Source of the DNA: Pseudogemmatithrix spongiicola
GTDB lineage: Bacteria > Gemmatimonadota > Gemmatimonadetes > Gemmatimonadales > Gemmatimonadaceae
Direction: 5' to 3'
DNA length: 64,000 nucleotides
NCBI RefSeq assembly: GCF_030623445.1
Contig: NZ_CP130613.1
Location: 124,001-188,000, forward strand
The notes beneath the pieces were generated by a model. It ran no database searches. It had not been told where the DNA came from and saw only the letters and a list, made by a program, of their open reading frames with translations. The translations under genes and the position numbers were made by a program. Numbering within the stretch: the stretch's first letter is position 1; each line of letters begins with the position of its first letter. Positions 28,544-63,149 of the stretch are shown here, one piece after another.

Positions 28544-29782
28544 ATGACGCGTCGAGAGAAGCACACAAAGCCGTTCACGATTGCAAACCTCGGATTTCTC
28601 ATTGATACCAAGAAGGTCTGGCTAAATCCGACCTATCAACGCGAAGCAGTTTGGACGCGATCTCAGAAGCAGCTGCTGATCGATTCACTCCTGCAGGACA
28701 TCGATATTCCCAAGCTTTACTTCCGGTCAGTCGACACGGATGGGTATCACTACGAAGTCGTCGACGGGCAACAGCGTCTTCGCGCCATCTCCGAATTTCT
28801 CGGAAACGACTACCCGCTTGCCGACGAGGCTGACGCGATCGATAGCCATAAGGTTGCTGGCCAGAGAATGCGCGAACTGCACCACGAATTGCAAATGAAG
28901 CTTCAAAACACACAGCTCGACGTGTGTGTGCTTCAATCAGGCTACAGCGACGACGACATCGAAGAGATCTTCCTGAGACTGCAGAACGGCACACCGCTCA
29001 ATGCCGCAGAGAAGCGACGTGCTCTGGCAGGAAACATGCGACACGTCGTGGAAGAACTCGCGGCACATGATCTGTTTTCTACCGACTTCTGCGGCTTCAC
29101 GGGGAAGCGCTTTGCTTATGAGGATGCAGTTGCAAAGCTCCTTCATCTGACGATTGAAGGACAGATCACGGACATCAAACACTCGACGCTGAAGCGCACG
29201 TACGAAGCAAACAAGACAATCAAAGCCACCGATCCAGCTCCAGCAGCGCTGAAGAGTGCTCTGAACTACTTGGTGAAGGCGTTCAAGGGCGGACCCAATC
29301 CGAAGCTGAAGAAGTTCTCAATCGTATCGCTAGGACATCTCGTAGTTGATCTGCGCGAGAAGTACAACGTCGGCGACTATCCAAAGGAGTTTGCGGCAGC
29401 CTATCTCGCTTTCGAAGAACGCCGCATTTCAAACGACGACCTCGAGGAGCATCTTCAGGACCCGCGGTTGAGTGCGTACACGAGCGCGGCGCGAGCGGAT
29501 CGCGTTCAGGATCTCGAGTTTAGGCACGAGACACTGAGGCGAGAGATTGTAGCGATGCTGCCCGAGCTAGTGCGAAAGGACGAGGAGCGTATGTTTTCTG
29601 AAGATCAGCGACAGGCGATCTTCTTGCGTGACAAAGGTGTCTGCCAGCAGTGCGGCCAGAATTGTAAAGACTCATTGTTCCACGCAGACCACATCGTTCC
29701 GTGGTCGAAAGGTGGAAAGACGAAGATCAGCAACGGACAAGTGCTCTGTCCCGCGTGCAATGCAAAGAAGGGTGCAGGATGA
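28544..29782 (+). CDS. DUF262 domain protein with C-terminal HNH nuclease
   Basis: A protein of 412 aa. The N-terminal ParB/Srx-like DUF262 domain has NPTYQREAVWTRSQKQLLIDSLLQDIDIPKLYF and the EVVDGQQRLRAI motif. The middle is helical. The C-terminal HNH domain (residues about 350-412) has CQQCGQ, HADHIVPWSKGGKT and NGQVLCPACNAKKG, a zinc-supported nuclease core. This domain pair is that of GmrSD-like type IV restriction systems and related anti-phage proteins. Base composition is clearly less GC-rich than the neighbours, suggesting transfer. Anti-phage function is an inference from family. Confidence 0.88.
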   Translation: MTRREKHTKPFTIANLGFLIDTKKVWLNPTYQREAVWTRSQKQLLIDSLLQDIDIPKLYFRSVDTDGYHYEVVDGQQRLRAISEFLGNDYPLADEADAIDSHKVAGQRMRELHHELQMKLQNTQLDVCVLQSGYSDDDIEEIFLRLQNGTPLNAAEKRRALAGNMRHVVEELAAHDLFSTDFCGFTGKRFAYEDAVAKLLHLTIEGQITDIKHSTLKRTYEANKTIKATDPAPAALKSALNYLVKAFKGGPNPKLKKFSIVSLGHLVVDLREKYNVGDYPKEFAAAYLAFEERRISNDDLEEHLQDPRLSAYTSAARADRVQDLEFRHETLRREIVAMLPELVRKDEERMFSEDQRQAIFLRDKGVCQQCGQNCKDSLFHADHIVPWSKGGKTKISNGQVLCPACNAKKGAG

Positions 29783-29810
29783 ACACTGTTTGCGTGGATC
29801 AGTCGCTATT

Positions 29811-31721
29811 CTAGAGGCCCCGAAACCCAGATGCTGAAAGACGCTGCCATGTCTGGTCGAGCTCGCTGAGGGGCGGAATCCAGAGAACGAGCGCGTCTCG
29901 TCCGCGTGTCATGAGAACGCGATAGGCATTGATTCGGAGCCGAAGCGGGTCATGGACAAGCGCACCACGCTTGTAACCGCGAGCGCGCCGGTCAGACCAT
30001 CTCCCGCGTTCGAAGAGAAGGTCGGTGCCCCAGGCAAGCAGGCTGGCGTCAAGTTCAAGTCCCTGGGCACCGAACTCTGTAACGCAGGACTCGAGTCGCC
30101 TGCAGCTCCGGCCACCGGGAGCATCCTCGGCGTCTCCATACCACGGGCCGTGCTTTAAGGCTTTGGTCGCCTGGAATTCATTCGGGATTCCGAAGTTCGA
30201 AAGCGACTTGTCACGCGCCGAGGCCAGCAGCCCATAGCGGGCCTGAGGGTCGTCTGAATAGCGCTCTCGCAGATAGCGCTTCGCAGTCTCCAGTTCACGG
30301 GTGATCCGCAGGCGGTATCCGTCAGCCTCAAGCCGTCGCCCCAGCTCGTCCGACGGCTCAGCGTCTGATAGAACGTCAGCGACCAGCTTGTGTAGATCAG
30401 TCGCGGCGTGAAAGCGGAGTTCACGATCGAGATTCAACGCGTATTTGAACTCAGATGTGACCGAATGTGAACGCATTTCATCTGCAAGCGCTGGGGGCGA
30501 GTGTATGGTCCACTCAGCCCCTCGCGATGACTTCTCTAGGGCGAGTCGCCATTGGCCGACACCTCCTTCCTCCCCGGTGTTGATCTCTTGGCCTGAACCA
30601 ATGAGAGCAACAACAACGCACCAGTCGGGGATTCTCTCCGCAAACTCGATGAACTGCTCGGGTTCAGAGCCGGTCACCGCTCCATCGTGTGAGTCGGCCA
30701 TCTTCGCCGCATCGAAGGCGCGCTGGGCTTCATCGAATACGAGCACGTGCTCAGGCGGCCTTGACTCCCGATTTCGCGAATACTTCTTGACGTAGTCCTT
30801 TACACCACGCACGAAAGTCTTGCCGTCGCCGCCCGCCTGTTTGAGTTCATACTGAAGAACTTCGACGAGTGGGCCATTTCCACTAAGGAAGACCGCGGGA
30901 GCCGACGGCTTCTCTCTGCCTCGCGCGACCGCAAGGTCGTCAAGGAAATGCGCATGGACAGTCCGGAGCCCGACGAGAGTCTTTCCCGCACCCGGGACGC
31001 CAGTCACGAGGACTAGGTGGCGCGACTTAGTGAGCGCTGCTGTGTGGATGATGCTTGATATCTCATTCACACAGGGGTCCGTAGCGGCTTTTGCGCGATG
31101 AATCGAGCGAAGAGTTCCCGAGCTCATAAGCTCGCGAGCTGCTTCCACAAGAGTGGGAAGCGGGCGGTAGGCCGACTCCGCCAGAAACCGGTCACGAGGC
31201 ACGGGGTCGCCTGCGATGTCTCGGACAAAGCGACTAACGAGGTCATCGAGAGCATCCGGACCGGCAACATGGACACCTTCGATAGAACCTGCGTACCCTC
31301 GCGCCCGTGTAGGAACCAGCACCGGGATAACGCTTCTGGATTCGCACTCGCGATGATAGCAGCGCAAGTCTCGCGCGTAGGCCGACACCTGGTCTAGATC
31401 CGCAATAGTCGGCTCTGACTTGCCCTTCAATTCGAGAACTACGACAGCTGCGCCGACAAGCAGAATCACGTCCGGTCGCCGCGATTCCATGGGAAGCTCG
31501 TACTCGAGGATCGTCGAGTACGTCGCTGCAAGTGTGTCGCGCAGAAGTGCCTTGTCGACTTCGCGCTGCAGCGGCGGAATGGAGTCATCCCAAGCGCGTA
31601 TCTGTTCAGGCGATGCGACGCCGAGGAATCTCTCGAGGCGTTCGCGAATTGAACGGGCTGGTGTCGATCTGAACTCAGGAAAGTCAGAACCCCAGCCATG
31701 CCCAGCCTCACGTTCGCTCAT
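29811..31721 (-). CDS. DUF2075 (Schlafen-like) helicase/ATPase with N-terminal nuclease-like domain
   Basis: A protein of 636 aa from ATG 31721 (MSEREAGHGWGSDFPEF); a 34-residue N-terminal extension is possible but unlike the rest. An N-terminal PD-(D/E)XK-like region has RRPDVILLVGAAVVVLELKGK, followed by Walker A VTGVPGAGKTLVGLR (residues about 250-264), Walker B HVLVFDEAQRAFD and helicase-like motifs ending YRVLMTRGRDALVLWIP. This is the DUF2075 family, annotated in many genomes as DNA/RNA helicase and often found in defence islands. Composition is lower in GC than flanking genes. It is convergent with the DUF262-HNH gene at a 28-nt gap. Confidence 0.83.
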   Translation of the reverse strand: MSEREAGHGWGSDFPEFRSTPARSIRERLERFLGVASPEQIRAWDDSIPPLQREVDKALLRDTLAATYSTILEYELPMESRRPDVILLVGAAVVVLELKGKSEPTIADLDQVSAYARDLRCYHRECESRSVIPVLVPTRARGYAGSIEGVHVAGPDALDDLVSRFVRDIAGDPVPRDRFLAESAYRPLPTLVEAARELMSSGTLRSIHRAKAATDPCVNEISSIIHTAALTKSRHLVLVTGVPGAGKTLVGLRTVHAHFLDDLAVARGREKPSAPAVFLSGNGPLVEVLQYELKQAGGDGKTFVRGVKDYVKKYSRNRESRPPEHVLVFDEAQRAFDAAKMADSHDGAVTGSEPEQFIEFAERIPDWCVVVALIGSGQEINTGEEGGVGQWRLALEKSSRGAEWTIHSPPALADEMRSHSVTSEFKYALNLDRELRFHAATDLHKLVADVLSDAEPSDELGRRLEADGYRLRITRELETAKRYLRERYSDDPQARYGLLASARDKSLSNFGIPNEFQATKALKHGPWYGDAEDAPGGRSCRRLESCVTEFGAQGLELDASLLAWGTDLLFERGRWSDRRARGYKRGALVHDPLRLRINAYRVLMTRGRDALVLWIPPLSELDQTWQRLSASGFRGL

Positions 31722-31788
31722 GAACCGGTTCCCGATGTCGTTTGTGCCCTGCGAAGGCACCGGAAACCCGGCGACTGCAGGCGCAAGT

Positions 31789-33216
31789 CTATGTGCCGTC
31801 TGTTTGCATCGCCCGCAGGGCAAGTTCCGGAGTCGTGCGCGGATTCATGACTGTCATGCGAAGCGTCCGAGTTCCACCAACGACGGTAGAGGTGGCCCAG
31901 CCAATCTCGCGCTCGTTCAGCGCCGCCACCAGGTCTGGAATCGCAGAGGTATCAACCGTGGCAGGACGCCAGCAAATAATGTTTGACTCTGGTACGTGGA
32001 TGACGGACGCCAAGCGTGACTCAAGGGCCTCGGCAGCGACCCTCGAAGACAGGTCGCATAGCTGTGCGTAAAGAGCGCCGATGCCGCGAACACCGAACCG
32101 CTGCAGCGAAACCCAAACTTTCAACGCATCTGCCCGCCGCGAACACTGAAAGCTCCGCTTCCCAAGATCCGGACTAAGCTCAACCTCCGAGTCCGCCCCG
32201 TGGAACAGGTAAGGCGCCGACTGGGCAAACGCCCGCTCCAAGTCCTTCCCATCCCGCACCAGCACCATGCCGGCAGACAAAGGCATGAGCATCATCTTAT
32301 GCGGATCCCAAGCCAGCGACCGCGCCCGGTGAATCCCCTTCACTCGCCACTTGTGCTTCTCGCTGAGCAACGCCGACGCGCCGTGCGCACCATCCACGTG
32401 CAGCCAGTGCCCGTACTTGTCGCACAGATCGGCAATCGCCTCGAGATCATCGAAGGCCCCGACGGCCGTACATCCCGCCGTCGCAACGACAGCCAGCACA
32501 TCACGCCCTGCGCGGTGCAGGCGCTCTAACGTCTCAGCGAGCAACGCCGGATCCATCTTGAACTCCGGCGTACTGCCGATCGCAACGCAGTTGTCTGTGC
32601 CGAGTCCCATCGCCCCCGCAGCACGCTGCACCGCGTAGTGCGCATGCTCGCCATGCACGAGCACGGGCGGCTGCTTGCCGAACCACCCGGTGCGCCAGGC
32701 GTCGGGATACTTGGCCGCGCGCGCGGCGAGGAGCGCGGTGAACGTGGCCTCGGTGCCGCCGCTGGTGAACGTGCCCGCGGCGCCGGGGCCGTAGCCGGCG
32801 AGTTGGCACATCCAGCCGATCACGCGCTCCTCGATGACGGTGGTCACGGGCGACATCTCCCACACGGCCTGGGACTGGTTGATGGCGCTGATCACGACAT
32901 CGGTCCACACGGCGGCGGCGAGCGGCGCCGAGACCTGATGGCCCATGTACTTGGGGTGCATCAGTTGGATGATGTCGGGCATGACGTCGCGCTCGACGCG
33001 CGCGGCGACGTCGGCGAGCGGCTGCATGCCCATGGGGATAGGCTCGTCGAAGCGCGCGGTGATCTCGCGCTTATCTAACCGCGTGGACACGGGGCCTTCG
33101 CCGGCGCGGGTCCGCTCGAAGTAGTCAGCGGCGATCTTCAGGAACTGGGCGCCAGCCTCAAAGCGGGTGTCGGCCTCGAGCGCGGCCAGGAGTTCGGCGG
33201 TGCGGGGGTCGGTCAT
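31789..33216 (-). CDS. Pyridoxal-phosphate-dependent decarboxylase (group II, aromatic amino acid type)
   Basis: A protein of 475 aa from ATG 33216 (an upstream TTG at 33225 is a weak alternative). Landmarks are HPKYMGHQVSAPLAAAVW, GTFTSGGTEATFTALLAAR, the cofactor loop HVDGAHGASALLSE, and the Schiff-base lysine in SLAWDPHKMMLMP. It belongs to the PLP fold-type I decarboxylases (aromatic L-amino-acid, glutamate or similar). The substrate cannot be fixed. It is divergent from the vapBC pair across a promoter with palindromes. Confidence 0.9.
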   Translation of the reverse strand: MTDPRTAELLAALEADTRFEAGAQFLKIAADYFERTRAGEGPVSTRLDKREITARFDEPIPMGMQPLADVAARVERDVMPDIIQLMHPKYMGHQVSAPLAAAVWTDVVISAINQSQAVWEMSPVTTVIEERVIGWMCQLAGYGPGAAGTFTSGGTEATFTALLAARAAKYPDAWRTGWFGKQPPVLVHGEHAHYAVQRAAGAMGLGTDNCVAIGSTPEFKMDPALLAETLERLHRAGRDVLAVVATAGCTAVGAFDDLEAIADLCDKYGHWLHVDGAHGASALLSEKHKWRVKGIHRARSLAWDPHKMMLMPLSAGMVLVRDGKDLERAFAQSAPYLFHGADSEVELSPDLGKRSFQCSRRADALKVWVSLQRFGVRGIGALYAQLCDLSSRVAAEALESRLASVIHVPESNIICWRPATVDTSAIPDLVAALNEREIGWATSTVVGGTRTLRMTVMNPRTTPELALRAMQTDGT

Positions 33217-55896: not shown

Positions 55897-56111
55897 CAGT
55901 CCTTCTTCCGTACAGCGCGTCCCGTCCTCACCAGATCAATCGCCCAACAGATCGCCAGCACCACCGCTCCCAGCTCAAGCGGCGGGTATGCTCCCACTTC
56001 GCGGTAGACGAGCATTCCGCTGAGTCCGAAGGCGAATAGTCCGCTCCATGCGATCCAGCACTGCACCTCGAACGAGAGCGGTTGGCGCCACTTCGACTTT
56101 GCTGCGTGCAT
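55896..56111 (-). CDS. Small two-helix membrane protein downstream of puhE
   Basis: A protein of 71 aa with two hydrophobic helices (VQCWIAWSGLFAFGLSGMLVY and LELGAVVLAICWAIDLV) and a basic end. Unrecognised. Its ATG overlaps the puhE stop by 3 nt (CATCA on the plus strand), so it is the last gene of the bchI-bchD-puhE transcript. A role in pigment-protein assembly is inferred only from position. Confidence 0.72.
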   Translation of the reverse strand: MHAAKSKWRQPLSFEVQCWIAWSGLFAFGLSGMLVYREVGAYPPLELGAVVLAICWAIDLVRTGRAVRKKD

Positions 56112-56890
56112 CAGTGGCCTCTCGCGCGGAGGAAACTGTCCCAGGGCGTGCTCTCGAGGGTCATGCCGAGGACGATGATCTCGAAGACGGCGAGTCCGAG
56201 GATCGTCGCGTAGAGGATTCCTGACTGCCGCTTACCTTCGCTGGGGGCGCGGCGGCAGAGCCATGCCGTCGCGAAGGTCGCCAGGCTGAGGGCGACGATG
56301 CTGGCGCCGAGGAACCAGGAGTTCTCGAGCGGCCCGAAGAACTGGCGCAGGTAGGCGAGGTGCGGCGGCAGGAAGTTGCCGGCGGGGTTCTCGACGCCGA
56401 GGAACACATTGACCTTCGCGACCTGCTGCACGGCCCAGAAGATGACGAGGCCCCAGAGACCGGTCTTGTTGCGGTCACCGTGGAGCAGCAGCGCGACGGC
56501 GCCCATGAGCAGCAGGGCGGCGACATCGCTGAGCAGCGTGGCTTGTATGGCGGGCAGCACCAGCGCCCACGAGGGCGCAGCGATGCCGAGCGCGTCCACG
56601 TGGAAGCCGGTGAGATAGCCGCCGTAGAACGTGACGGAGACCCAGCCCCAGAGCAGCGCGCCGCCCATGAAGCTGCGCCGCGCGCCGACGGCGGTGTCGT
56701 CGTTGGCGGACGAGCGCAGCTCCCAGAATCCATACACGGCGAGCATCGTCGCAACGACCAGTGCGCTGACGCGCGTCCATCCGGCGCGCTGCATGGCGAT
56801 GATCAGGCCGGTCGCGACCCACCAGAACAGCACGACCAGCGCGATGCCGCGGCCGATCATGCCGCGCAACGCGCCCCTGTGCGCATTCAT
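56111..56890 (-). CDS. puhE: Photosynthetic complex assembly protein PuhE
   Basis: A membrane protein of 259 aa with about seven transmembrane helices. Diagnostic phrases are GFWELRSSANDDTAVGARRSFMGGALLWGW, VFLGVENPAGNFLPPHLAYLRQFFGP and the terminal MTLESTPWDSFLRA. In proteobacteria puhE usually lies next to puhBC and acsF; here it is 43 kb away, behind bchD with a 4-nt overlap. Confidence 0.9.
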   Translation of the reverse strand: MNAHRGALRGMIGRGIALVVLFWWVATGLIIAMQRAGWTRVSALVVATMLAVYGFWELRSSANDDTAVGARRSFMGGALLWGWVSVTFYGGYLTGFHVDALGIAAPSWALVLPAIQATLLSDVAALLLMGAVALLLHGDRNKTGLWGLVIFWAVQQVAKVNVFLGVENPAGNFLPPHLAYLRQFFGPLENSWFLGASIVALSLATFATAWLCRRAPSEGKRQSGILYATILGLAVFEIIVLGMTLESTPWDSFLRARGH

Positions 56891-58665
56891 GCGCGCGCCG
56901 CCGTGACCGCGGCGTGGATGCTGCGCGCATCCGTGCGCGGCAGGGCGACATAGCGCGCGCCCATCGCGGCGGCGACGTCCTGCGCCTGCGGACTGGGGCG
57001 CGGCGACGTGTCGATCACCAGCACCTGGCCCTCGAGGCCGCGCAGAACGCGCGCCGACTGCAGCGCGTCGGCCATCGCCTGCTCGCGGCCGCCGCTGCCG
57101 TCGCGTGCGATGTTGGCGCGGGCGTCGGTGAGGAAGACCACGACGGTGTCGTTGCCCTCGCGGCGCGCGCGCAGCGTGAGCTCCACGGCGCGGTCGATGG
57201 CCGAGGCCAGCGGCGTGCCGCCACCCCCGGGCAGCGCGGCCAGCGCGCGCTTGGCGGCGGCGATGGCACGCGTGGGCGGCAGGAGGATCTCGGCCTGCGC
57301 GCCGCGGAACGCAATCAACGCGACTTCATCGCGGCGCGCGTAGCTCTCGGCGAGCAGCAACTCCACGGCGCCCTTGGCTTCGGCCATGCGATTCGCGGCC
57401 GACGAACCCGACGCGTCGACGACGAAGATGGCCGTGGTGCCGGCGGGTTCGAAGAGCCGGCGGATGCGGAAGTCGTCGGGGCGGACGAGCACACGCGGCT
57501 GCGGTGTGGACGCTTCGGCGGCATGCTGGGCGTCGCGCGTGCGGCGGCGCAGCGGTTGCCAGGGCGCGGCGGCGCGCAGCGTCTCCACCAAGTCGAGCCG
57601 TCCGCCGCCGCGCGGATCGCCGCGGCGCGTGCCGACCTGGCGGCCGCGCAGGCCGCCACTGCGATCCGCACCGGCACGTCCGGCCGCGCGGCCGGCTTTG
57701 GGTGTGCGCGTCGGCGCATCCATGGTGAGGCCGACAGGTAACGCGGCGACCATCGCCTCGATGATGCGCTCCTCAAGCTCACGCACATCCTGCTCGTCGC
57801 GCTCGGCGCTGTCGTCTTGGTTCTGCGCGTCGTCGGGCGGCGGCGGCGGGGGCTCCGGCTCGGAGCTGGCCTCCGGTGGCGGCGCCGGCAGGCGCGTCGC
57901 GCGGGGCCCGAGCACGAGCGCCGCGGCCGTTGCGAGATCGCCGTCGGTGGTCGCGCGGCGGCCATCGAGCGCCGCGAAGCAACGCGCCGCGCGCAGGGCC
58001 GCGCGCACCGCGCGCAGGGAGTCGATGCCATACAGCTCGGCGGTGTGCACGAGGGTGCGCAGCTGCGCCTCGTCGGCGATCACGTTGGGCAGCAACGCGG
58101 CGGCGGTCGAGATGTCATCCCGCGAATACAGTGCGGGCAGCGGCTGCGCGTCGAGCATCAGATGAAACGCGCAGCGGTCGGCGATTGCGCCGTGCACGGG
58201 ATCTTCGTCGGCCTCGGCTTCATCGATGGCGACGATCGTGACCCGCGCGGCATGATGCTCCGGCGCATCCTCGATGCGTACGCGCTGTGCGACGTGACCG
58301 AGGTCGAGCACCTGGGTGAGACGCGCGGCGAGCGAGGCTCCGATGCGTTCGGCGCCGGGGATGACGAGCAGGCCCCCGTCGAGCGCCGCGAGCAGTCCGC
58401 GGTCGGCGACGGGCCGTCCGTGGGCAAGCGTCATCGCGAGGTCGAGTCCGCCGAGGAGCCGATCGTCGGGGATGGCGAGCGGCAAGCGACGATGTGGCGC
58501 GGCTTCAGGCATCAAGCACCGCAGACGCGCGACGAACGCCTCGGCAATGTCACTGCGCGGCGCGCGGAGTACGGCGCCGCCGAGGGCGACGCCGTCGAGC
58601 GCGAGCACGGCCGCCGCGAGTTCGGCGCGCGTCGCGGGATCGAGCGCAGCCGCGGCTTCGTTCAC
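56887..58665 (-). CDS. bchD: Magnesium chelatase subunit D
   Basis: A protein of 592 aa. The N-terminal AAA+ domain lacks an intact Walker A, as usual for BchD. A Pro/Asp/Glu-rich linker (residues about 260-300) is followed by a basic region and a C-terminal von Willebrand A domain with the MIDAS motif FVVDASGSSAANRMAEAKGA and later DTSPRPSPQAQDV. It couples BchI ATPase to BchH. The start overlaps the bchI stop by 4 nt. Confidence 0.95.
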   Translation of the reverse strand: MNEAAAALDPATRAELAAAVLALDGVALGGAVLRAPRSDIAEAFVARLRCLMPEAAPHRRLPLAIPDDRLLGGLDLAMTLAHGRPVADRGLLAALDGGLLVIPGAERIGASLAARLTQVLDLGHVAQRVRIEDAPEHHAARVTIVAIDEAEADEDPVHGAIADRCAFHLMLDAQPLPALYSRDDISTAAALLPNVIADEAQLRTLVHTAELYGIDSLRAVRAALRAARCFAALDGRRATTDGDLATAAALVLGPRATRLPAPPPEASSEPEPPPPPPDDAQNQDDSAERDEQDVRELEERIIEAMVAALPVGLTMDAPTRTPKAGRAAGRAGADRSGGLRGRQVGTRRGDPRGGGRLDLVETLRAAAPWQPLRRRTRDAQHAAEASTPQPRVLVRPDDFRIRRLFEPAGTTAIFVVDASGSSAANRMAEAKGAVELLLAESYARRDEVALIAFRGAQAEILLPPTRAIAAAKRALAALPGGGGTPLASAIDRAVELTLRARREGNDTVVVFLTDARANIARDGSGGREQAMADALQSARVLRGLEGQVLVIDTSPRPSPQAQDVAAAMGARYVALPRTDARSIHAAVTAARA

Positions 58666-59702
58666 GCCGCGCCCAGCACGTCCACGACGGCGCGCTCGAT
58701 GCGCACGGCCGAGCCGACGTCATCGAGTACGTTGCGGCGCAGGCGGTGACGCAGCGCCGAGGGCGCGATGGTACGGAGGTGCGCGGTGGTAACGGCGCGC
58801 GCGCCGTCGTAGGCGGCAAGGGCGCGGGCGCCGCGCAGCAGCGCGAGTTCGCCGCGCACGCCGTCGGTGCCGACGGCGGCGCAGAGGCGGGCGGCGTCGC
58901 GCAGCACGGCGTCGGGCACCTTGAGCGCGTCGATCCTCTTGCGGGCGCGTTCGACGTGCTTGCGCGCGTCGAGGTCTTCGGATGCCCACTTGGCGGTGAA
59001 GCCTTCGGGGTCGCGGTCGAAGGCATCGCGGCGCTTGATCACCTCGACGCGCGCATCGAGGTCGGTGGTGGTGGTGACTTCGACGGAGAGGCCGAAGCGA
59101 TCGAGCAGCTGCGGCCGCAGGTCGCCTTCCTCGGGATTGCCCGAACCGACGAGGACGAAGCGCGCGGGATGGCGCACGGAGATGCCTTCGCGTTCGACGA
59201 CGTTCTCGCCGGTGGCGGCGACGTCGAGCAGGAGATCGACGAGGTGATCCTCGAGGAGGTTGATCTCGTCGACGTAGAGGTAGCCGCGATTGGCGCGCGC
59301 GAGCAGGCCGGGTTCGTAGGCTTTTTCGCCGCGCGTGAGCGCGCGTTCGAGGTCGAGCGCGCCGACGACGCGGTCTTCGGTGGCGCCGAGCGGGAGATCG
59401 ACCACTGGCACAGGGTGCTTGTCGTGGCGCAGCTTCTCGCCGGCGGCGATGCGCGCGCGGCAGTCGTCGCAGCGGCGGGTGTCATTGTCGGGATCGCAGC
59501 CGTAGCGGCAGCCGCGCACGACGGACATCGGCGGGAGCAGGGCGGGCAGTGCACGCACCACGGTGGACTTCGCGGTGCCGCGATGACCGAGGATCAGCAC
59601 CCCACCAATGGTGGGGTCAACGGCGGTGAGGAGGATGGCGCGCTTCATCTCCTCCTGGCCGACAATCGCCGAAAACGGGAAGGCGAGTCGCAACGGGAGC
59701 AC
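58662..59702 (-). CDS. bchI: Magnesium chelatase ATPase subunit I
   Basis: An AAA+ ATPase of 346 aa. FPFSAIVGQEEMKRAIL lies at the N-terminus, Walker A GHRGTAKST is at residues 39-47, RGYLYVDEINLLEDHLVDLLLD is Walker B, and sensor GSGNPEEGDLRPQLLDRFGL is present. The start GTG 59702 is closely preceded by GGAG; the TTG four codons later would have better spacing. It is the first gene of bchI-bchD-puhE; a TTGCGA-N16-TATAAT promoter (minus strand, -10 at 59728-59733) lies 26 nt upstream. Confidence 0.96.
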   Translation of the reverse strand: MLPLRLAFPFSAIVGQEEMKRAILLTAVDPTIGGVLILGHRGTAKSTVVRALPALLPPMSVVRGCRYGCDPDNDTRRCDDCRARIAAGEKLRHDKHPVPVVDLPLGATEDRVVGALDLERALTRGEKAYEPGLLARANRGYLYVDEINLLEDHLVDLLLDVAATGENVVEREGISVRHPARFVLVGSGNPEEGDLRPQLLDRFGLSVEVTTTTDLDARVEVIKRRDAFDRDPEGFTAKWASEDLDARKHVERARKRIDALKVPDAVLRDAARLCAAVGTDGVRGELALLRGARALAAYDGARAVTTAHLRTIAPSALRHRLRRNVLDDVGSAVRIERAVVDVLGAA

Positions 59703-59747
59703 TCCGGGGGGTAAGTGTCAGACCTAGATTATAGGAGGGACCGCAGG

Positions 59748-59790
59748 TGTCGCAATCCCCTGACACTCAATATGTCCAGTAGACTTGACA
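59748..59790. promoter_or_regulatory. Two TGT-N12-ACA palindromes (PpsR/CrtJ-type) in the bchI/crtF divergent promoter
   Basis: Site 1 is 59748-59765 (TGTCGCAATCCCCTGACA) and site 2 is 59773-59790 (TGTCCAGTAGACTTGACA), separated by 7 bp. Site 1 overlaps the -35 (TTGCGA) of the bchI promoter. Site 2 contains TTGACA (59785-59790), the -35 of a rightward promoter with TATCGT 17 nt later. This spacing matches cooperative CrtJ/PpsR binding sites known in purple bacteria. Confidence 0.75.
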
Positions 59791-59908
59791 GATTGAAAAC
59801 ACGGTCTTATCGTCGCCTTGTCGGCACACCCCCACTCCGACGCTCGGTGTGGGGAACAGTGCCGGCCTCTCCCGGGCTTCACTCCGAATGGCACCTCCGG
59901 AGAATACG

Positions 59909-61057
59909 ATGGTTGGGGTGGCGGTCGCTGATGAGGCGCCGCCGATGACCTGGCGCGATCGCCTGCTGGCTTGGCGTGATCGTATCCAGTCGAGCCCCAC
60001 GTTCCAGCGCTGGGCTGCGAGTTTCCCGCTCACGCGACCGATCGCCCTGCGACGGTCACGCGCGCTGTTCGACCTCACGGCCGGCTTCGTCTACACGCAG
60101 ACGCTCACGGCGTGTGTGCGGGTCGGACTGTTTGACTTCCTGGCGGAGAGGCCGCGCACGCGCGCGGAGATTGCCGCCCACGTGGGAATCCCGCTGGAAG
60201 AGACCGAGCGGCTACTCCGTGCGGCGATTGCGCTCAAGCTGGTGCAGGGGCGGTCAGGCGACCGGTTCGGCTGCGGTCCGATGGGTGCGCCGTTGATTGG
60301 AAATGTCGGCTTGGCTCGAATGATTGAGCACAATGCCTTGCTATATCAGGACTTGACGGATCCTATCGAGTTCTTCCGGTCAAGTCAGAGCAGTAACAGA
60401 GCAGTATTGCAACACTTTCCGTACACAAGCGTCACTGATCCTGAAAAGTTCGGCCGCGGTGTGGTCGCCGACTACTCCTCACTGATGGCGGAGACTGTGC
60501 GGCCGCTGGCGGAGGACATCCTCGACCGGTACTCGCTGGACGGTCGAAAGGCGCTGTTGGATGTGGGTGGTGGTGAGGGCGCGTTCCTCGCCGAGGTCGC
60601 CTGGAGGTATCAGGGGATCGGTTTGAAGTTGTTCGACCTCCCTGCTGTGGTAGAGGGGGCGAAGATACGTCTGGCCCGGTTGGGTCTTGTGGGGCGGGTG
60701 GAATTGTCCGGGGGGAACTTTCATCAGGACCCCCTCCCAACCGGTGCCGACGTAATCACGTTAGTGCGCGTGCTCTTGGACCACGATGACGCCTCTGTGC
60801 TGGGGCTGCTGCGGCGGGTGCGCGCGGCGCTCGAGCCGGGTGGCGTCTTGTTGATCGTGGAGCCGTTCTCGGGAGTGCGCGGGGCGGAGACGGTCGGCGA
60901 TGCCTATTTCGGCCTGTACCTGCGGGCGATGGGACGGGGTCGGGCGCGTCGGGCGGATGAGCTCCAGGCCCTACTAATGAAGGCGGGGTTCTCTGGCAGC
61001 AAAGTGCACCGGACCCGGTACCCGGTGTACGCGGGGCTGATTTCGGCGACTCCATAG
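59909..61057 (+). CDS. crtF: Carotenoid O-methyltransferase CrtF (demethylspheroidene / hydroxyneurosporene type)
   Basis: A protein of 382 aa. ATG 59909 is chosen because GGAG (59899-59902) precedes it by 6 nt; earlier ATGs at 59849 and 59888 lack a site. The N-terminal dimerisation part FQRWAASFPLTRPIALRRSRALFDLTAGFVYTQTLTACVRVGLFDFLAE is characteristic of CrtF. SAM motif LLDVGGGEGAFLAEVA and the catalytic region LVRVLLDHDDASVLGLLRRVRAAL follow. It methylates the tertiary hydroxyl of acyclic carotenoids. An intrinsic terminator follows. Confidence 0.9.
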   Translation: MVGVAVADEAPPMTWRDRLLAWRDRIQSSPTFQRWAASFPLTRPIALRRSRALFDLTAGFVYTQTLTACVRVGLFDFLAERPRTRAEIAAHVGIPLEETERLLRAAIALKLVQGRSGDRFGCGPMGAPLIGNVGLARMIEHNALLYQDLTDPIEFFRSSQSSNRAVLQHFPYTSVTDPEKFGRGVVADYSSLMAETVRPLAEDILDRYSLDGRKALLDVGGGEGAFLAEVAWRYQGIGLKLFDLPAVVEGAKIRLARLGLVGRVELSGGNFHQDPLPTGADVITLVRVLLDHDDASVLGLLRRVRAALEPGGVLLIVEPFSGVRGAETVGDAYFGLYLRAMGRGRARRADELQALLMKAGFSGSKVHRTRYPVYAGLISATP

Positions 61058-61124: not shown

Positions 61125-61168
61125 TGTAAATCTGTCTTGACGGTTTGTAGTGTCAGTCGTACGTTACG
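61125..61168 (+). promoter_or_regulatory. bchC promoter with two near-consensus PpsR boxes
   Basis: TGT-N12-ACG occurs at 61125-61142 and at 61151-61168, separated by 8 bp; each differs from TGT-N12-ACA at the last base. TTGACG (61137-61142) and TACGTT (61160-61165) form a -35/-10 pair with a 17-nt spacer, each overlapping one box. Confidence 0.6.
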
Positions 61169-61200
61169 GACTGAAGGCTCCTTCCTTATTGAGGACGCTG

Positions 61201-62142
61201 GTGCAGACTCGGGCGATTGTCTTCGAACAACCACGGCAACTCAGCGTGCGCGAGCTCACACTCGCGGCACCGAGTGCATCGGATGTCGTTGTCGACATCG
61301 CGTGGTCGTCGATTAGCGCCGGGACGGAACGTCTGCTGTGGGAAGGCCGCATGCCGATGTTTCCGGGCCTCGCGTATCCGCTGGTGCCGGGCTACGAGTC
61401 GGTAGGCACAGTAATGAAAGTCGGTGATGGGGTCACGCAACTCGCGCCGGGTACGAGTGTCTTCGTGCCGGGCGCGAACTGTTATGGCCCCGACGTGCGC
61501 GGGCTCTTCGGCGGCGCATCACGTCGCGTCGTCGTGCCCGCATCGCGCGTGATCGCCATCGATCCGTCATTGAAGGAGCGCGCGACGTTGCTCGCGCTCG
61601 CCGCCACGGCGCTGCACGCGCTGCGCGGCGGATCCGCGCTGCCCGAGCTCGTGATCGGCCACGGCGTCTTCGGCCGTCTCACGGCGCGCCTGATCCAAGC
61701 GCTGGGTGGCAGCCCCACGGTGTGGGAGCGCAACGACGCCCGCATGGGCGGTGCGACCGGTTACGCCGTGCTCGACGCGGCGAACGATCCGCGCAAGGAC
61801 TACCGCTGCATCTTCGACGCCTCCGGCGATGCGTCGCTGCTTGATGCGCTGGTGATGCGCCTGGCCAAGGGCGGGGAGATCGTGCTCGCGGGCTTCTACT
61901 CGACGCCGATCTCCTTCGTGTTTCCGCCGGCCTTCATGAAAGAAGCTCGCTTCCGCATCGCGGCCGAATGGTCGCCGGCGGATCTCGCCGACTGCGTCGC
62001 CATGCACCGCGACGGTCGGCTCTCGCTGGACGGACTCATCACGGATATCTCCCCCGCCGAACGCGCTGCCGATGCCTATCGCGCCGCGTTCGATGATCCG
62101 CACTGCCTCAAGATGGTCCTCGACTGGAGCACACTATCGTGA
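61201..62142 (+). CDS. bchC: 3-hydroxyethyl bacteriochlorophyllide a dehydrogenase
   Basis: A protein of 313 aa from GTG 61201, preceded by GAGG at 61191-61194; the product begins VQTRAIVFEQPRQLSVRELTL as expected, whereas an upstream start at 61150 overlaps promoter elements. Zinc-less MDR fold: DIAWSSISAGTERLLWEGRMPMFPGLAYPLVPGYESVG, then GASRRVVVPASRVIAIDP and LVIGHGVFGRLTARLIQALGG. It oxidises the 3-hydroxyethyl side chain to 3-acetyl. The stop overlaps the bchX start (GTGA). Confidence 0.94.
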   Translation: MQTRAIVFEQPRQLSVRELTLAAPSASDVVVDIAWSSISAGTERLLWEGRMPMFPGLAYPLVPGYESVGTVMKVGDGVTQLAPGTSVFVPGANCYGPDVRGLFGGASRRVVVPASRVIAIDPSLKERATLLALAATALHALRGGSALPELVIGHGVFGRLTARLIQALGGSPTVWERNDARMGGATGYAVLDAANDPRKDYRCIFDASGDASLLDALVMRLAKGGEIVLAGFYSTPISFVFPPAFMKEARFRIAAEWSPADLADCVAMHRDGRLSLDGLITDISPAERAADAYRAAFDDPHCLKMVLDWSTLS

Positions 62143-63149
62143 TTGACAACGGCACACCGACCGACGCGCTCGTCCAGCTGCACCGCGGCCTCCGCGACGA
62201 AGCCGCCTCCACGCCCGAGCCGGTCAGCACCGGCGAGGTCAAGAAGGAAACGCAGATCATCGCGATCTACGGCAAGGGCGGCATCGGCAAGTCGTTCACG
62301 CTGGCGAACCTCTCCTATATGATGGCGCAGCAGGGCAAGAAGGTCCTGCTGATCGGCTGCGACCCGAAGAGCGACACGACGTCGCTGCTCTTCGGCGGCC
62401 GCGCGACGCCGACGATCATCGAGACGAGCTCCAAGAAGAAGCTGGCCGGCGAAGAAGTCACCATCTCCGATGTGTGCTTCAAGCGCGACGGCGTCTTCGC
62501 GATGGAACTGGGCGGTCCGGAAGTCGGCCGCGGCTGCGGCGGACGCGGCATCATCCACGGCTTCGAACTCCTCGAGAAGCTGGGCTTCCATGAATGGGGC
62601 TTCGACTACGTGCTGCTCGACTTCCTGGGCGACGTGGTCTGCGGCGGCTTCGGCCTGCCGATTGCCCGCGACATGTGCCAGAAGGTCATCGTCGTCGCCT
62701 CCAACGACCTGCAATCGCTCTACGTCGCCAACAACGTCTGCTCGGCGGTCGAATACTTCCGCAAGCTGGGCGGCAACGTCGGCGTCGCGGGCATGGTGAT
62801 CAACAAGGATGACGGCACGGGTGAGGCTGCGGCGTTCGCCGACATCGTCGGCATCCCGGTCTTAAGCGCGATCCCGGCGCACGAGGATATCCGCCGCAAG
62901 AGCGCCAACTATGAGATCGTCGGCTTGCCCGGCGGTCAGTGGGGCTCGCTGTTCGAGACGCTGTCGACAAACGTCGCCGAAGCGCCGCCGGTACGTCCGA
63001 AGCCGCTCACGCAGGACCAGCTGCTCGGCCTGTTCGCCAGCGACGTGACGGGGCGCGACGTGGTGCTCGAGCCGGCGACGATGGTCGACATGGTCGGCCG
63101 CGCCGACATCTCGAAGCCGTCGCTCGAAGTCGTCTACGACACGGTCTGA
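62139..63149 (+). CDS. bchX: Chlorophyllide a reductase iron protein BchX
   Basis: A NifH-like electron donor of 336 aa for BchYZ, starting at GTG 62139 within the bchC stop. P-loop: [21 protein letters not shown]. 4Fe-4S Cys ligands are in VGRGCGGRGIIHG and [18 protein letters not shown]. The N-terminal extension of about 35 residues is normal for BchX. It differs clearly from the BchL in the first half of the window. Confidence 0.96.
   Translation: MIDNGTPTDALVQLHRGLRDEAASTPEPVSTGEVKKETQIIAIYGKGGIGKSFTLANLSYMMAQQGKKVLLIGCDPKSDTTSLLFGGRATPTIIETSSKKKLAGEEVTISDVCFKRDGVFAMELGGPEVGRGCGGRGIIHGFELLEKLGFHEWGFDYVLLDFLGDVVCGGFGLPIARDMCQKVIVVASNDLQSLYVANNVCSAVEYFRKLGGNVGVAGMVINKDDGTGEAAAFADIVGIPVLSAIPAHEDIRRKSANYEIVGLPGGQWGSLFETLSTNVAEAPPVRPKPLTQDQLLGLFASDVTGRDVVLEPATMVDMVGRADISKPSLEVVYDTV

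Follow-up and report, generated by a model that had tools for sequence, protein, structure and literature searches.

Phototrophic Gemmatimonadota are a well-known case in which an entire photosynthesis cluster was transferred between phyla. Was the regulation of these genes lost? For Gemmatimonas phototrophica the published view is one of minimal regulation (PMC11406998). A pair of palindromes between bchI and crtF of Pseudogemmatithrix spongiicola raises the question at the level of a single promoter region. The window analysed here is a stretch of 64,000 nucleotides (C1:124001-188000). Its source genome (G000) is 3.26 Mb long in a single contig and belongs to the Gemmatimonas family, though to a different genus.

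Paired palindromes between bchI and crtF

The original prediction placed two exact palindromes with 7 bp between them in the bchI-crtF intergenic region, and both were found where it had put them: box B on the bchI side, TGTCGCAATCCCCTGACA, and box A on the crtF side, TGTCCAGTAGACTTGACA, are exact PpsR-type palindromes (Table 1). With half-sites TGTC/GACA, they also fit the longer published PpsR consensus TGTc-N10-gACA (PMC3949515). The proposal that half-sites form the -35 elements of both promoters likewise held, as TTGCGA-N16-TATAAT was read leftwards and TTGACA rightwards. The rightward -10, TATCGT, had been left unnamed and is new. The name crtF comes from weak methyltransferase matches only (the best, BchU, was under its cut-off) and from the position of the gene upstream of bchC-bchX.

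Table 1. Features of the bchI-crtF region, in window coordinates
Feature	Position	Strand	Remarks
puhE-like, final gene of the bchID-puhE unit	56111..56890	-	TIGR03055, 119 bits, under cut-off
bchD, magnesium chelatase subunit D	56887..58665	-	NF009943, 630 bits
bchI, magnesium chelatase subunit I	58662..59702	-	TIGR02030, 512 bits, above NCBIfam cut-off
bchI -10, TATAAT (perfect)	59728..59733	-	16-nt spacer
Box B, TGTCGCAATCCCCTGACA	59748..59765	none	holds bchI -35 TTGCGA on minus strand; kept in 24 other genomes
bchI -35, TTGCGA	59750..59755	-	within box B
Gap between boxes	59766..59772	none	7 bp; 6, 7, 8 or 17 bp in two-box relatives; sequence not conserved (0/7)
Box A, TGTCCAGTAGACTTGACA	59773..59790	none	holds crtF -35 TTGACA
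crtF -35, TTGACA	59785..59790	+	within box A
crtF -10, TATCGT	59808..59813	+	17-nt spacer; 4/6 vs TATAAT; 3/6 positions invariant in genus
crtF-type methyltransferase	59849..61057	+	weak family matches; place before bchC-bchX
PpsR-like box upstream of bchC, TGTAAATCTGTCTTGACG	61125..61142	none	matrix score 16.8
bchC (listed ORF)	61150..62142	+	TIGR01202, 419 bits
Second, weaker bchC box, TGTCAGTCGTACGTTACG	61151..61168	none	matrix score 9.9; 8-bp gap
bchX	62139..63149	+	TIGR02016, 411 bits

BchI was matched in 42 of 395 Gemmatimonadota genomes, and most of the Gemmatimonadaceae retain the box pair. Together with its promoter elements and in the same layout upstream of bchI, it was present in P. 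spongiicola and 24 other Gemmatimonadaceae genomes; the pair also occurs at two more named MAG loci (L084 and L089). The consensus of the relatives is TGTCAA-N9-AC(A/G) for box A and TGT-N7-TTGC(G/C)A for box B. Box B was imperfect in two genomes, with gaps of 7 and 9 bp (L044, L048), and some Gemmatimonadaceae genera retain a single box or neither. Among seven members of the genus, 13 of 18 positions were invariant in box B and 8 of 18 in box A, compared with none of 7 in the gap and 1/17, 0/14 and 2/33 in neighbouring stretches. The spacer before the bchI -10 measures 17 nt in all relatives (16 in the window); that before the crtF -10 is 17 nt in most of them, and in the AP64 subclade this -10 has decayed. 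Matches to the -10 are mostly 3-4 of 6 and individually not rare, the stronger point being the fixed spacing over relatives that are themselves non-independent.

A divergent crtF was found upstream of bchI in every Gemmatimonadaceae member with sufficient flank. This arrangement was absent from the 72 non-Gemmatimonadota loci among 80 named bchI loci, all proteobacterial bchI loci included, and crtF was not within about 1-1.5 kb of bchI in seven Gemmatimonadota loci from other families. At least one PpsR-like box was present near bchI in 18 of the 69 outside loci having at least 250 nt upstream. As the crtF-bchI divergence is restricted to Gemmatimonadaceae among the loci compared, the shared operator belongs to the layout of that family.

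The regulator and its predicted sites

A ppsR homologue, the presence of which had been proposed as a check, was found 1.9 kb beyond the left edge of the window, on the same chromosome (C1:120820-122136). The gene is full-length, its product scored 458 bits against a curated cut-off of 275 (TIGR02040), and it has three PAS regions followed by a Fis-type HTH (HTH_8) and is homologous to the solved R. sphaeroides PpsR. It adjoins a gene for a B12-binding PpaA/AerR-like protein and bchG. The recognition helix SRQ(S/T)LYVKLRR is common to the PpsR of Gemmatimonadota and Proteobacteria. PpsR was detected at E<=1e-40 in 39 of the 41 other bchI-bearing genomes, the two exceptions being drafts, and in one of 20 genomes without bchI. 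That single genome (G028; loci L074, L215 and L228) carries ppsR, bchF, bchG, bchP and bphP and gave no bchI match at E<=1e-60, which reflects either gene loss or a draft gap.

A matrix trained solely on the bchI-crtF boxes of the relatives was then run on other promoters. It found boxes between bchF and ppaA in 18/18 genomes, at bchG in 16/17 and, as one or two boxes, at bchC in 11/13; none was found at the bchP promoter (0/15). Upstream of ppsR, a box was present in all eight scanned genomes of the P. spongiicola genus and in none of 10 others; because it falls within the last part of the ppaA reading frame, coding constraint may contribute. In 16 genomes the bchF/ppaA boxes are two that overlap by 2 bp, and the same overlapping boxes occur in several Proteobacteria, hence this double box is probably ancestral. 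In P. spongiicola it lies at C1:123131-123164 (L082:6131-6164), and the two boxes could hardly both be occupied by two units in the usual way. The true start of bchC is probably further in, at about 61201, since the weaker bchC box overlaps the listed start.

In 107 kb of the P. spongiicola genome nine hits scored 13 or more, all at bchI/crtF, bchC, bchF/ppaA, bchG, ppsR, the start of bchF or hemC/bphP; shuffled sequences gave 0-2 such hits in the same scan. In G039 (putative AP64) all six were at photosynthesis promoters: bchG, bchF/ppaA (two), bchC and bchI/crtF (two). The published account of G. phototrophica AP64 gives one PpsR site, where bchID-puhE begins (PMC11406998). This is the same promoter as here, and the operator is known in kind. 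The AP64 site was published as the sole one in the cluster, whereas P. spongiicola has a pair at this promoter and G039 has at least four site regions. The retained predicted PpsR regulon is composed of bchI/crtF, bchC, bchF/ppaA and bchG, plus ppsR in this genus.

What do the boxes do? TGT-N12-ACA palindromes lie on promoter elements, a short gap separates them, and a cognate PpsR is encoded in the genome. The operator is an ordinary one in kind, a PpsR operator, real and well conserved, and both boxes are almost certainly PpsR binding sites, as predicted from sequence. The sequences themselves give the boxes and their conservation, and they show that regulator and boxes occur together and that the HTH closely resembles those of characterised PpsR proteins; the pair is best read as a site for cooperative repression of both units. 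PpsR would bind each palindrome through its Fis-type HTH; with 25 bp between their centres, two bound units would touch and hence bind cooperatively. The -35 element of each divergent promoter would then be covered by PpsR, and bchID-puhE and crtF-bchC-bchX would be repressed together. We consider it highly probable that the boxes form such a shared operator. The same PpsR would also act at bchC, bchF/ppaA, bchG and, in this genus, its own gene.

Other readings of the boxes were weighed against this one. A single TGTN12ACA is weak evidence, as the window holds 11 where 5.5 were expected, an approximately twofold excess, and 6 of 400 shuffled windows contained a pair whose gap was 0-20 bp. However, no TGTCN10GACA pair with such a gap arose in the 400 shuffles and the pair is kept across the family, which leaves chance a negligible probability. 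That another regulator with a TGTC-N10-GACA site occupies the boxes is very unlikely: the genome holds 29 copies of the pattern (the backward control has 7) and encodes other proteins with such an HTH, but strong matrix hits concentrate at photosynthesis promoters, and PpsR is matched by both the consensus and the HTH.

The operator might also be largely vestigial, with PpsR binding, expression near-constitutive and the boxes kept chiefly for their -35 elements. The minimal regulation of G. phototrophica and the presence of a -35 hexamer inside each box agree with this. However, in the genus the half-site outside the -35 is invariant at 4/4 positions in box B (59762-59765) and at 2/4 in box A, and the extra ppsR site is present in all eight genomes scanned. 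The gap, moreover, shifts by about one helical turn in the relatives with 17 bp; as one change on the BchI tree suffices for that state, the helical-turn argument rests on a single event. Taken together, these observations make a vestigial operator unlikely.

The preferred reading, a shared operator for cooperative repression, has parallels in known systems. At the Rhodobacter capsulatus bchC promoter, CrtJ binds both of two close TGTN12ACA palindromes (PMC5362033). As there, two close palindromes lie on promoter elements, and P. spongiicola also has a pair at bchC, separated by 8 bp. The R. capsulatus pair spans the -35 and -10 of one promoter, whereas the present pair takes in one -35 from each of two opposite promoters. 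The PpsR sites of Rubrivivax gelatinosus crtI and pucB, with 8- and 9-bp gaps, have the same half-sites and the same spacing class (PMC4452267). In contrast, the gap is 7 bp here, 8 bp in most sister species and 17 bp in one Gemmatimonas clade, and PpsR here has no HTH cysteine.

Candidate signals for PpsR

Repressor and sites have been retained and rearranged across the family, a site has been added in one genus, and the redox cysteine is absent throughout. Whether regulation was lost therefore becomes a testable question of which signal took the place of redox. Phe stands at the position of the redox-active HTH cysteine (Rhodobacter Cys424/Cys420) in each readable PpsR from Gemmatimonadota; in proteobacterial PpsR the residue is often Cys and sometimes Ser or Tyr. 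This cysteine marks part of the PpsR family, not all of it. In P. spongiicola, Val occupies the PAS1 cysteine position, and the one cysteine of the listed PpsR ORF lies elsewhere. In G. phototrophica, transcriptomics detected no response of the cluster to oxygen, and strong light gave transient repression only (PMC11406998); the operator may therefore seldom change its state.

The claim that redox repression was kept after the transfer is not supported by these observations. A thiol-based aerobic repressor of the Rhodobacter type would share its family and operator consensus with the PpsR found here, and PpaA/AerR is retained; nevertheless, with Phe and Val at the two cysteine positions and no oxygen response in G. 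phototrophica, it is improbable, and cysteine-based redox control was rejected on the PpsR alignment (Phe at the HTH position). A cofactor such as heme might still confer redox sensing. In Rubrivivax, PpsR binding was redox-dependent with a 9-bp gap and not with an 8-bp gap, and an HTH cysteine mutant still repressed (PMC4452267); the P. spongiicola gap is 7 bp. The derepressing signal would most likely not act through the classical cysteine switch, the candidates being the PpaA/AerR B12 protein and, in this genus, a BphP1-type bacteriophytochrome.

Since PpsR lacks the oxygen-sensing Rhodobacter cysteine, light is likelier than redox as its signal. The bacteriophytochrome gene (735 aa; C1:109229-111433, L081:9229-11436) is near ppsR and divergent from hemC. 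Its product has the PAS-GAF-PHY-PAS9 architecture of a type 3 bacteriophytochrome with no kinase match, and its best solved relative is RpBphP1 (4gw9), in an alignment that reaches through PAS9. Where a type 3 bacteriophytochrome would carry its C-terminal two-helix output (HOS), the roughly 90 residues after PAS9 are 59-65% identical within the genus and had no match in proteobacterial loci, not all of which reach that end. Strong matches (E<=1e-180) were found in all eight ppsR-bearing genomes of the genus examined and in none of the five examined members without ppsR; among the other Gemmatimonadota searched, matches to the BphP1-type phytochrome were weaker only. In G182 the gene is split over two overlapping frames (C80:84390-86581; L232, L239), owing to a frameshift or an assembly error.

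In Rhodopseudomonas palustris, the PpsR2 of wild strains has no such cysteine and answers far-red light through RpBphP1 (PMC6899989). P. spongiicola resembles this system in combining a PpsR devoid of the HTH cysteine with a kinase-less PAS-GAF-PHY-PAS9 phytochrome; it differs in having a single PpsR, and the interaction of phytochrome and PpsR is putative here. With a BphP1-type phytochrome near ppsR, light control is plausible in this genus, and a phytochrome-PpsR circuit is a lead to follow. We tentatively propose, as a possibility well short of the confidence attached to the operator itself, that in this genus the PpsR regulon has lost its cysteine redox input and that the phytochrome would lift PpsR from a crtF-bchI operator formed after the cluster reached the family. 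In the library searched, papers treating bacteriophytochromes together with Gemmatimonadota and the photosynthesis cluster came to one review. A PpsR-like box between bphP and hemC (C1:109107, score 16.8 in P. spongiicola) is only weakly kept in the genus, and for that reason we do not count it among the firm sites.

The photosynthesis cluster seems to be split in this genome (window about 14000-56000), with bchN-bchB-bchH-bchL-acsF-puhB at the left end and bchD-bchI, crtF-bchC-bchX at the right end. The genes between the two halves are unrelated and encode a Big_1/RCC1 protein, glycosyl hydrolases, a DPP-IV-type peptidase and an acyl-CoA dehydrogenase. In G182 the distance from bchI to ppsR is just about 26 kb. 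Within the intervening stretch (window 28544-31823), a gene for a GmrSD-type restriction protein adjoins one for a Schlafen-group-3 helicase, and the two may form a defence pair.
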